NCBI GenBank assembly: GCA_947488085.1
Contig: CANKYI010000001.1
Location: forward strand, 1,373,928-1,437,927
From: an uncultured Erythrobacter sp.
Lineage (GTDB): Bacteria > Pseudomonadota > Alphaproteobacteria > Sphingomonadales > Sphingomonadaceae
DNA: 64,000 bases
Direction: 5' to 3'
Both the position numbers and the translations under genes were made by a program. Below, piece after piece: positions 19,750-62,439 of this stretch. Within the stretch, counting starts at the first letter, position 1; each line of letters starts with the position of its first letter. Under the pieces are notes generated by a model. The model did not search any database, had not been told where the DNA came from, and saw only the letters and a program-made list of their open reading frames with translations.

Positions 19750-22407
19750 ATGTCAAAGTACATAAGCGGGGCGTCGATTGGCGCACTCGCGGTCGCAATT
19801 GCATCGCCAGTTGCGGCGCAAACCGCAGATCAACCGGCTCAGGCTGAAGAACGCCAAGGCGGCGTTGGCTCCATCGTTGTTACCGCACAACGCCGCAGCG
19901 AAGACCTGCAGGACGTGCCGGTTTCCGTCTCCGCCATTGGCGCAGAAGCTCTCGATGAGCTGAACATCGACACGTTTGAGGACTATCTCGACCAGATCCC
20001 AACTGTAACCGCAGGCGGCAATGGCCCGGGTCAAAGCACGATATACATTCGCGGCCTTGCCTCCACCACGCCGAACATCACGGTTGCTGGTGTTGCCGGT
20101 CTTGCGCCAAACGTTGCGCTCTACCTCAACGATCAACCGCTCTCACAGCCGGGCCGTAACCTCGACGTTTACGCCGCTGACCTTGAGCGGATCGAAGTGC
20201 TCTCGGGCCCGCAAGGCACTCTGTTCGGCGCTAGTTCGCAAGCGGGCGTTGTGCGCCTGATCACGAACAAGCCTGATCTGTCGGGCTTCTCTGCAAGTTC
20301 ATCGGCTGGCATCTCCTTCACCAAAGGCGGCGAAGCGAGCTACCAGGGCGAAGTGATGGTCAACGTGCCGGTTAGCGACACGTTCGCACTGCGCGGCGTC
20401 GTCTATCTTGATGATCAAGGCGGCTACATCGACAATGTCGCTGGCACCCGCGATCTGACCGAAAGCGCGCGTTTCCGCCCTGAAGGTTTCGTCCGTGAAA
20501 ACGGCGTGCCTGTGAACGCCAACCGCGCCGGTTTCCAGTCAACCGCTGATCTGTCGGGCGTCACATTCCTGCAAGCTGACAACGCCGGCATTGCCGAAGA
20601 TAACTTCAACGACACCACCTATGCTGGCTTCCGCGTCAGCGCATTGTGGGAAGTCACACCGGATTGGACAGTAAGCCTGTCCCACCAGCGTCAGAGCTTG
20701 GAATCAGACGGTGTGTTCTTTGCCGACCCGGAATTGGGTGGTCTGGATGATCTGGAAATCGAGCGTTTCGAAGCAGACCGTCTCGAAGACGATTTCTCGA
20801 ACACCAGCTGGACCGTCGAAGGACGCATTGGCTGGCTCGATGTGATCTATACCGGCGCATACACCGACCGCGAAAGCGAACAGCGCGCGGATTACACCGA
20901 CTACCTATTTGCGGGCCAATATCTTCCCTATTACATCTGTGATGGTTCGGTGAGCTATCCCGGCGCGGGCAACGATCCGTCCGGCACATGCCAAGCGCCA
21001 AACCTGTTCGTGAACTCCTTCTCCAAAACCGAAGTGTTCACACAGGAATTGCGTTTCAGCACACCTGAAGATTGGCGCGTGCGCTTCCAAGGCGGCGGCT
21101 TCTATTCCGATCTCAGCCTCGAAGAGCGCGTTGATTTTGCCTATCCCGGCAACACCATTGCGCAGCCATTTGGTCCGTTTGCTGAAAACTTCCCGCAAAC
21201 AACCGGCTTTGTCTCCGATCCGGGTCCATTCCCCGCCTCGACAATCTTCCGCAACGACATTCGCCGTACAGACGAACAGTTCGGCATCTTTGGCGAAGCA
21301 AGCTTCGACATTGTGCCTGACCTGCTGACCGTCACACTCGGCGCGCGTTATTATGATGTTGAAGTTGATTTTGAAGGCAGCGCCAACGGTTCGTTCTGTA
21401 ACTCTGGCGGCACCGATCAAAACGCATTCGGCACCGACATCAGCGATCTTTATAATGGCGATGGGCAGTTCACCTTTATCGGATCATGCGATCCTGCTTT
21501 GCGCCAGACTTTCGACTTGAATGACAGCTTGGCTGATATTCAGGCCGCTGGCCTTTCTGCAGCGCAAGCGCAGCAAGTGTTCAACGCCGTTCGCGCGCCA
21601 GACACCGCATCGACCGATGGCTTGATCTACAAGGGTACGGTTACGCTGACCCCAAATGAAGACCTGCTGTTCTATGCAACATATTCAGAGGGCTTCCGCC
21701 CCGGCCTGCTCAACCGTCCCGGCGGCGCAGTGGCACCGGGAACTGGCTTTGTTGTGCCATTCGAGGTCGAAACCGATGAAGTGAAAAACTACGAGCTGGG
21801 TTGGAAAATGGACCTTCTCGAGGGTCAATTCCGCTTCAACGGCTCGGCGTTCTTCGTGGACATTTCGAACCTGCAAACGCAGATTTTCGATCCTTCGATC
21901 ACAAACCTCTTCTTCTCGTCCAACGCGGCCGATGCAGAGATTTACGGGATTGAAGCAGACTTTACCGTTGCACCTTATGCGACGCCGGGTCTGACACTGT
22001 CGGGCGCATTCTCGATCCTCGATACAGAGATCACCGAAATCCTCATCCCGACCACAGACGTGATCGAAGGTGAAGAGCTTGCATACGCTCCGGGTTTTCA
22101 GGGCAATATTCGCGCTCGATACGAATGGGATCTGTCGGATAGCCTTGAGGCGTATATCCAACCGCAAATGACCTATTCGGGTTCGAAGTTCACTGACATT
22201 ATCGAGATCAACAAGATCGAACTCGATAGCTACACCACGTTCGACCTGTCGGTTGGTGTGAAAGCGGAACAGTGGCGTTTTGAAGTGTTTGGTGAGAACC
22301 TTTCAGATGAACGCGCCGAAGTATCCGGCATCTTTGGCAATGACCGCGAACGCATCATCACCAACCGTCCTTTGACGGTCGGCATGCGCGTGTCATTCGA
22401 CTACTAA
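19750..22407 (+). CDS. TonB-dependent receptor
   Basis: Signal peptide, plug domain (IVVTAQRRSEDLQDVPVSVSAIGAEAL...YIRGLAS), C-terminal beta-barrel ending VGMRVSFDY. Confidence 0.95.
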   Translation: MSKYISGASIGALAVAIASPVAAQTADQPAQAEERQGGVGSIVVTAQRRSEDLQDVPVSVSAIGAEALDELNIDTFEDYLDQIPTVTAGGNGPGQSTIYIRGLASTTPNITVAGVAGLAPNVALYLNDQPLSQPGRNLDVYAADLERIEVLSGPQGTLFGASSQAGVVRLITNKPDLSGFSASSSAGISFTKGGEASYQGEVMVNVPVSDTFALRGVVYLDDQGGYIDNVAGTRDLTESARFRPEGFVRENGVPVNANRAGFQSTADLSGVTFLQADNAGIAEDNFNDTTYAGFRVSALWEVTPDWTVSLSHQRQSLESDGVFFADPELGGLDDLEIERFEADRLEDDFSNTSWTVEGRIGWLDVIYTGAYTDRESEQRADYTDYLFAGQYLPYYICDGSVSYPGAGNDPSGTCQAPNLFVNSFSKTEVFTQELRFSTPEDWRVRFQGGGFYSDLSLEERVDFAYPGNTIAQPFGPFAENFPQTTGFVSDPGPFPASTIFRNDIRRTDEQFGIFGEASFDIVPDLLTVTLGARYYDVEVDFEGSANGSFCNSGGTDQNAFGTDISDLYNGDGQFTFIGSCDPALRQTFDLNDSLADIQAAGLSAAQAQQVFNAVRAPDTASTDGLIYKGTVTLTPNEDLLFYATYSEGFRPGLLNRPGGAVAPGTGFVVPFEVETDEVKNYELGWKMDLLEGQFRFNGSAFFVDISNLQTQIFDPSITNLFFSSNAADAEIYGIEADFTVAPYATPGLTLSGAFSILDTEITEILIPTTDVIEGEELAYAPGFQGNIRARYEWDLSDSLEAYIQPQMTYSGSKFTDIIEINKIELDSYTTFDLSVGVKAEQWRFEVFGENLSDERAEVSGIFGNDRERIITNRPLTVGMRVSFDY

Positions 22408-60221: not shown

Positions 60222-61049
60222 TTAAGCAGCAGGCGTTTCAGCGGCAGCATCAGCAACTGGCGCTTCCGGAGCAGGCGCTGCTTCTTCAGCGGGTGCCTCG
60301 GTCGCGGTCGACTCTTCGGGTGGTTGTTCCATCGCGCCAAAATCTTCGCCCGATGTCTCAATCGCTCCGCCTTTGCCCGCAATCGCTGCATCGCCAATCG
60401 CTTGGCAATAGAGGCGAACCGCACGGGCCGCATCGTCATTGCCGGGAACTGGGAAAGCGATGTTGCTAGGATCAACATTGGTGTCGAGCACGCCGATCAC
60501 GGGAATGCCAAGAACAGCTGCTTCCTTAATCGCCAGATCTTCTTTGTTCGCGTCGATTACAAACATCACGTCAGGAATACCGCCCATATCCCGGATCCCG
60601 CCGAGCGACAGTTCCAGTTTGTCACGCTCACGCGTAAGCTGAAGGACCTCTTTCTTGGTGAAGCCGCTGCTGTCACCGGACAGTTGCTCTTCGAGGGTCT
60701 TGAGACGCTTGATCGAGCCGCTGATGGTTTTCCAGTTGGTTAGCATCCCACCGAGCCAACGGTGGTTCACAAAATGCTGACCCGACATGCGAGCAGCTTC
60801 TGCGATCGGCTCTTGCGCCTGACGCTTGGTGCCGACGAACAGAACTTTACCGCCTGCGCGAACGGTGGACTCAACAAAATCGAGCGCGCGTGCGAACAAG
60901 GGCACGGTTTGCGACAGGTCGATGATGTGAACACCGTTGCGGTTGCCGAAGATATACGGCTTCATCCGCGGGTTCCAGCGGTGGGTCTGATGGCCGAAAT
61001 GTGCGCCGGCCTCGATCAATTGCTGCATTGTGACGGTGGGTCCCGCCAT
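60222..61049 (-). CDS. rpsB: 30S ribosomal protein S2
   Basis: [42 protein letters not shown]; start at ATG 61049. Confidence 0.97.
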
Positions 61050-61251
61050 AGATAATTCCTTCCGGTTGTTCCTCTGGAAAGCTGGAACTGCGTGGCGGAG
61101 ATCCCGCGTGCAGCACCGGTATGAGCGCTTTCCATGTGAATTTCGCCGATTTGCGATTGCGTGATTCGCAGCCATTCCTCGACAAGGCTCGCGCCATTAA
61201 CGCCCTTTAGACACAAAATCCAGTGTAAACCGACGCCCGCTCAACCAAAAA

Positions 61252-61325
61252 GAACACAAGTGGAACAAATTTACTTGACTAGGGAGAACACTTATAGAAC
61301 AAGCAAGGGAGAACAAACGCTGAAC
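61252..61325. promoter_or_regulatory. Three tandem LexA (SOS) box matches GAAC-N7-GAAC
   Basis: 61252-61266 GAACacaagtgGAAC; 61286-61300 GAACacttataGAAC; 61311-61325 GAACaaacgctGAAC; the reverse complement is the alphaproteobacterial GTTC-N7-GTTC consensus. Possible promoter TTTACT(61270)-N17-TATAGA(61293) overlaps box 2. Confidence 0.75.
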
Positions 61326-61345
61326 GCCGAATCGGAAGGCCCACC

Positions 61346-61606
61346 ATGATCCTATCAATGACACTCACTGGCCTATTTGCTGTTGTGACAATCGCGACCG
61401 GGCTTAGCCTGCTCGACAGCTGGCTGCGTGGGCGCAGCGTGTATCGGGTGTTGAAGCGCGAGCAATCGCTGCTGAAAGCGGGGTTTATGCCTCAGGTCCA
61501 CGCGCATGAAGTTCGCTTGAGAAAGCCTGCTCGGCGCACTTTGGCATCAGCGGCTCGTCCCTATGCCCGCCGCACGCCTTTACCGGTGTTTCAGACCGCG
61601 GCTTGA
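61346..61606 (+). CDS. Small single-TM membrane protein, predicted LexA-regulated, uncharacterised
   Basis: 86-aa ORF with ATG preceded by GGAAGG; hydrophobic LSMTLTGLFAVVTIATGLSLLDSWL then a basic cytoplasmic-type tail. Confidence 0.75.
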   Translation: MILSMTLTGLFAVVTIATGLSLLDSWLRGRSVYRVLKREQSLLKAGFMPQVHAHEVRLRKPARRTLASAARPYARRTPLPVFQTAA

Positions 61607-62439
61607 TCTGCTTTGCGGCGTTTGACCTTGCCATATTTGTAAAGCGCATAGGGCATCGCCAAAAGATAGCCTAAGCTCATCACAGTGAGCGTCCACCATG
61701 GCTCCAACATCAACGCGGCAAAGCCCAATGCCGATGCAGCCAACAAAGGCAGCCGTACATCGCGGCGCGGACGGATCGCCCCCCAGCTGAGCGTGGCCAT
61801 GTTCGAGATCATCAGGATGGCGATCGCGCTGACCCAAAAGGCAAGGATCATTGGGTCCCGGAAAATCGGCAGACCGGTTTCCAACCACAAATAGCACGGC
61901 ATGAAGGCAATCCCGGCAGCAACTGGAGCTGGGATACCGGTCAGGAAACCAGCGGCGCTGTGCGGCTGATCCTCCATATCGATCCGAGCGTTGAAACGCG
62001 CGAGCCGCAACGCGCAGCAAATCGCAAAGCCCAAAGCTGCAAACCAACCAAAGCGCGGCAAATCCTGCAATGACCACATGAACAAGATAAGCGCTGGCGC
62101 CATGCCGAAAGACAGCGAGTCAGCAAGGCTATCAAGCTCTGCTCCGAACCGCGATTGCGCATTCAACAGCCGCGCAATTCGGCCATCAATACCATCAAGG
62201 ACACCAGCCAAACACACTGCAAGGATCGCATAGGCCCACAGGCCATCAATCGCGAAACGCACACCAGTGAGCCCGGAGCACAAAGCCGCCGCGGTGATCG
62301 CATTCGGCAACATTGCTCTGAGCGTCAGCCCGCTACCATCGACTACATCGACGTCTTCATCTTCCGCTGCCCTTGGTCCGACTCTTGCTGGGACAGACTC
62401 AGGAGGCGTACGATCTTTGGAACGCTTGCTCACAACCAA
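61591..62439 (-). CDS. pssA: CDP-diacylglycerol--serine O-phosphatidyltransferase
   Basis: MLPNAITAAALCSGLTGVRFA; DGIDGRIARLLNAQSRFGAELDSLADSLSFGMAPALI. Confidence 0.95.
   Translation of the reverse strand: MVVSKRSKDRTPPESVPARVGPRAAEDEDVDVVDGSGLTLRAMLPNAITAAALCSGLTGVRFAIDGLWAYAILAVCLAGVLDGIDGRIARLLNAQSRFGAELDSLADSLSFGMAPALILFMWSLQDLPRFGWFAALGFAICCALRLARFNARIDMEDQPHSAAGFLTGIPAPVAAGIAFMPCYLWLETGLPIFRDPMILAFWVSAIAILMISNMATLSWGAIRPRRDVRLPLLAASALGFAALMLEPWWTLTVMSLGYLLAMPYALYKYGKVKRRKADQAAV

Follow-up and report, generated by a model that had tools for sequence, protein, structure and literature searches.

An open reading frame for an 86-aa protein, preceded by three boxes of the LexA-operator type, was found in the window (the whole 64-kb stretch of Erythrobacter DNA that was analysed). 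This raises the question of whether the frame is a genuine gene of the SOS response and, if so, what its product does in the damaged cell. By analogy with known cases, 61346-61606 may encode an SOS-induced, ClpXP-unstable inhibitor in the inner membrane, probably of cell division and SidA-like in action, a reading to which we assign a probability of roughly 0.5. Searches of the non-subscription literature on SOS and LexA in sphingomonads and Erythrobacter found no paper on this gene or on a sphingomonad SOS division inhibitor.

LexA boxes and the SOS regulon

The initial annotation had described three GAAC-N7-GAAC boxes (GTTC-N7-GTTC on the opposite strand), and a motif search of the window bore out their positions, the exact N7 spacing and the preceding A (Table 1). 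Exact GTTC-N7-GTTC occurs 4 times in the 64-kb window against 1.75 expected, and genome-wide 81 times against 118 for the reversed control pattern; the count in the window, taken alone, is weak evidence. In Markov-simulated 64-kb windows, three boxes within 75 bp were seen in 0 of 200 and two in 1 of 200. A fourth match, at 20223-20237 of the window, is G+C-rich and probably due to chance.

Table 1. Coordinates, in the window, of the gene, its control elements, the parts of its product and its neighbours
Feature	Position	Strand	Remarks
rpsB, divergent neighbour	60222..61050	-	TIGR01011 match; start picked by eye; context, outside the system
LexA box 1, GAACACAAGTGGAAC	61252..61266	+	extra operator upstream of the -35 element; common only to close Erythrobacter relatives
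-35 element, CTTGAC	61274..61279	+	exactly 6 bases before the operator; conserved across 69 family loci
LexA box 2, GAACACTTATAGAAC	61286..61300	+	ancestral operator; alone among the three in keeping the family's TTGAC spacing; found at every framed family locus
LexA box 3, GAACAAACGCTGAAC	61311..61325	+	extra operator downstream of box 2; common to members of the same genus group
Gene of the 86-aa membrane protein, predicted SOS control	61346..61606	+	conserved ORF, dN/dS about 0.1; homologues occupy the same locus
N-terminal transmembrane helix, about residues 2-23	61349..61414	+	hydrophobic segment; AF2 models give a helix over residues 2-44
Juxtamembrane motif L-x-D-S-x-x-R-G-x-x-A/V-Y-x-x-L, residues 22-36	61409..61453	+	column conservation in the alignment
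C-terminal F-Q-T-A-A, putative ClpXP degron	61589..61603	+	67/69 members end AA; the tmRNA tag of this genome has LAIAA at its end
pssA-like CDP-alcohol phosphatidyltransferase, convergent neighbour	61591..62439	-	identified by eye; also adjacent in the related loci that were read

AT-rich matches to the box were found in the same genome at recA, uvrA, uvrD, imuA and rmuC, as well as at a dprA-like gene, two genes for LexA/S24-type repressors and radical-SAM repair-like genes, the names being taken from translations rather than profiles. Furthermore, a box lies about 140 bp ahead of this genome's lexA gene (TIGR00498). Since the same motif sits at recA, uvrA, uvrD, imuA, lexA and other genes, GTTC-N7-GTTC is, to judge from its distribution, the mark of the SOS regulon here, as it is in Caulobacter (PMC9578287, PMC12700426). 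The role of LexA operator previously given to it is strongly supported by these genes and by its retention upstream of every clear orthologue of the small gene, and SOS (LexA) control of that gene is a prediction very well supported in silico.

The two S24/LexA-like repressor genes, at C1:546870 and C1:3027815, each have their own GTTC-N7-GTTC box with a small helix-turn-helix-like ORF on its far side, and they are possible SOS sub-circuits. The radical-SAM repair-like genes lie behind LexA-type boxes at C1:862386 and C1:1190538. At C1:1782175, the box GTTCATGAAATGTTC directly precedes an ORF resembling a phage-type lysozyme, possibly an SOS-induced lysis gene or a prophage remnant.

Conservation of the gene with its operator

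The ORF begins with ATG, with GGAAGG about 6 nt upstream. Close relatives keep it at 69-76% identity, the differences fall mainly at third codon positions, and where dN/dS could be estimated among them it is 0.07-0.13; the earlier call of a gene here is upheld by these data. Homologues were picked by protein similarity alone; 70 loci were fetched, and 69 of them were in the correct frame. In every one of these 69, rpsB runs divergently upstream and one or more exact boxes are present, and the seventieth shows both features once read in frame. Conservation of the box in orthologues, on which the initial annotation had staked its proposal, was thus found at every clear orthologue. Among 20 weaker profile matches, 16 lie at the rpsB locus, 14 of these with an exact box and two (from one genus) with a one-mismatch box and TTGAC in place; the other four lie off the locus and have no box. 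By sequence and position, the 86-aa gene belongs to a family whose place between rpsB and pssA is fixed (pssA and psd were named by eye).

In a reverse test, 30 rpsB loci from 30 genera were picked by rpsB score alone. The box was present in 21 loci, and downstream of it each of the 21 has a short ORF with a hydrophobic N-terminal segment; nearly all of these ORFs end in AA. Of the nine loci lacking the box, among them one truncated by a contig end, a single one has such an ORF. About one third of the sampled genera have neither box nor gene at the rpsB locus and must manage otherwise. Within the family, which we take to be the GTDB Sphingomonadaceae because those relatives that bear a name are Erythrobacter, a profile search matched 121 of 301 genomes, or 45 of 96 genera; a few of the matches are due to chance and lie off the locus. 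The same search of 289 sampled alphaproteobacterial genomes outside the family yielded no credible homologue; its two weak matches (E 9e-5 and 5e-4) fall within longer open frames.

The number of boxes differs among relatives. Those of the same genus group carry boxes 2 and 3 or all three, which suggests that box 3, and box 1 after it, were gained later. Box 2, which has the TTGAC spacing of the family, is the ancestral operator, boxes 1 and 3 being additions in the genus of the window that presumably tighten repression.

Promoter architecture

When the 69 loci were aligned on the operator, only CTTGAC, six free bases, GAACAAATAGAGAAC and the following A stood out from a nearly random remainder, which gives a family-wide promoter footprint of CTTGAC-N6-GAAC-N7-GAAC. 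TATAGA (61293-61298), once named as the best -10 candidate, lies only 12 bp from TTGACT (61275-61280), and with this wrong spacing it is probably not the -10 element. Because the footprint across the family is CTTGAC-N6-operator, a -10 element at 61298-61303 (AACAAG), about 17 bp after TTGACT, is more likely. Scanning for promoters gave no strong sigma-70 site.

The boxes might be chance matches or might serve rpsB, with the short frame spurious, for rpsB borders the same intergenic region and single boxes often arise by chance. The -35 element, however, is directed at the small gene from a fixed distance, box and ORF co-occur across genera, and the ORF is under purifying selection, so that this explanation is highly improbable. 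Its two forms were rejected on separate grounds, chance by the 69/69 conservation, the box-ORF coupling across genera and the clustering relative to simulated windows, and service to rpsB by the way the -35 element is oriented and spaced toward the small gene.

Architecture of the predicted protein

Family members are 70-99 aa long. AF2 models show residues 2-44 as one helix and the remainder mostly disordered, the tail being of low confidence. The N-terminus carries no charge, and the chain turns basic after the transmembrane segment, with a mean charge in family members of +3 over residues 26-45 and +5 beyond. Hydrophobic stretch, modeled helix and charge profile together back the single N-terminal transmembrane helix and basic tail of the initial annotation. 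Because of the positive-inside rule and the basic stretch behind the membrane, the tail should be cytoplasmic, with the short N-terminus outside. The conserved positions are L10, F11, D24, S25, R28, G29, A/V32, Y33 and L36, followed by high variability and then by R71 and a terminal L-x-(A/V)-A-A. None of 53 members matched Pfam, hence no LysM (as in YneA and ChiZ) and no domain of SulA, which binds FtsZ, was found, and neither Pfam, PHROGs, PADLOC nor the PDB gave a credible known family. Four NCBIfam matches to transporters and a response regulator, each in a single member, were dismissed as chance look-alikes of the transmembrane segment.

The Ala-Ala terminus

The C-termini vary highly among members except for the last residues. 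Terminal Ala-Ala, overlooked when the locus was first annotated, is carried by 67 of 69 members versus 2 of 55 and 0 of 22 other ORFs, and Ala-Ala makes up 2.4% of the dipeptides inside the same family tails. The protein of the window ends in QTAA; some close relatives (loci L015-L017) end in LAS, FAG or DCA, so the tail is not strict. A terminal Ala-Ala is the main determinant for ClpXP (PMC7652416), and we infer that it would serve here as a built-in degron. The family tail, L-R-(A/V)-A-A, resembles the L-A-I-A-A end of this genome's own tmRNA (ssrA) tag, ANDNEALAIAA. The ClpXP degron of the LexA N-terminal fragment likewise has a terminal Ala-Ala, and cleavage of this genome's LexA at the usual Ala-Gly bond would leave HGRIAA at the end of the fragment. 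In contrast to both, the Ala-Ala of the family is genome-encoded at the end of a predicted SOS membrane protein, as a putative degron. Turnover by ClpXP is moderately supported in silico.

These features also bear on an SOS-induced membrane effector that does not inhibit division, such as an accessory of repair, segregation or the envelope that would use its basic cytoplasmic tail as an anchor or regulator. SOS control, membrane segment and basic tail would fit it equally well, and the variable tail offers no clue to a divisome partner. No domain was recognised, however, and a turnover tag and fast divergence would better suit a transient inhibitor, which leaves such an accessory role unlikely.

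A leader element outside the genus

Outside the genus of the window, a leader of about 90-100 nt lies between operator and start, whereas the window's own leader is short. A word like TTATCCACA (at most one mismatch) occurs in 50 of the 69 family loci, compared with 1.3 in shuffled sequences, and TGTCAACA often comes after it. In its exact form, the composite TATCCACA-N3-TGTCAACA has five occurrences in 151 genomes, every one at this locus, and in leaders outside the genus (e.g. L023, L040 and L044) the word TTTTCCAC lies 12 bp upstream of it. In the genus of the window, the element is missing and additional LexA boxes are found instead. The element could represent an array of DnaA boxes or a hairpin in the 5' UTR. 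Automatic consensus folding of the leader as a conserved RNA gave no structure (mean z -1.2), and a hand-anchored hairpin gave borderline covariation, with 175 paired cells versus a mean of 160.8 and 175 in the best of 2000 shuffles. An Rfam search of seven loci gave a weak match to RF01815 (rpsB sRNA), below the gathering score, at L034 1156-1243 on the minus strand, the rpsB side of the intergenic region.

A leader of this kind could recall TisB, an SOS type I toxin of the membrane; toxins of its type are very short amphipathic peptides with an antisense RNA. The present protein, likewise small, membrane-spanning and under predicted LexA control, would then depolarise the membrane and favour dormancy, restrained by leader structure or antisense RNA, and most members outside the genus do have an approximately 100-nt leader with a conserved, locus-specific element. 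However, the length of 70-99 aa, the extended and conserved juxtamembrane region and the polar tail speak against such a toxin, the folding signal of the leader is weak and the window's own leader short, and the Rfam search of seven loci, with the weak rpsB-side match as its sole result, recognised no antisense RNA. A toxin of this type is quite improbable.

Proposed mechanism and known inhibitors

Returning to the division inhibitor, we infer induction, topology, degradation and target as follows. LexA at box 2, reinforced by boxes 1 and 3, would block the promoter until DNA damage removes LexA and the gene turns on. Once inserted, the protein would have its short N-terminus on the outer side of the membrane and keep its basic tail in the cytoplasm, its transmembrane and juxtamembrane helix would most likely hold back septum formation, and its Ala-Ala end would target it to ClpXP, so that the block fades once synthesis stops. 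A block of cell division by the 86-aa protein is modestly favoured, because small integral membrane proteins that block a late division step are a widespread SOS mechanism (PMC13396833), of which SidA is the alphaproteobacterial case (PMC4211646).

SidA of C. crescentus, which is LexA-controlled and acts on FtsW, shares with the family the alphaproteobacterial background, the GTTC-N7-GTTC operator and the form of a small inner-membrane protein with one transmembrane segment. SidA has only 29 aa, whereas the family has a long basic tail and an Ala-Ala end, and the likeness is by analogy. DidA of the same species, which acts on FtsN, is of similar size (71 aa) with one transmembrane helix, but it is SOS-independent while the family has conserved LexA boxes. 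YneA, ChiZ and SosA, the Gram-positive and mycobacterial SOS division inhibitors, are likewise SOS- or damage-controlled small bitopic membrane proteins, and YneA is removed by proteolysis for recovery, as is putatively the case here. Unlike YneA and ChiZ, the family has no LysM; YneA is cut by membrane-bound proteases rather than marked by a putative ClpXP tag, and its C-terminal domain is extracellular, whereas the family is predicted N-out/C-in with a long cytoplasmic tail.

A broader model is tentative. The locus may be an SOS checkpoint across the Sphingomonadaceae, with a genome-encoded Ala-Ala tail of the ssrA or LexA-fragment type, so that the protease clearing cleaved LexA would also end the checkpoint. 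Most members outside the genus might add a second, locus-specific leader control (TATCCACA-N3-TGTCAACA and variants), possibly DnaA-binding or an RNA hairpin.

Significance

Sphingomonads are a large and widely used group, and the profile makes the locus a strong candidate for an SOS division inhibitor in up to 45 of the 96 genera sampled; position and box do so in others. It would provide a second alphaproteobacterial case to set beside SidA, and its fixed position, operator and tail make the checkpoint, the protease-based recovery and the fast evolution directly testable. The terminal Ala-Ala tail suggests a short-lived brake on cell division during DNA repair.
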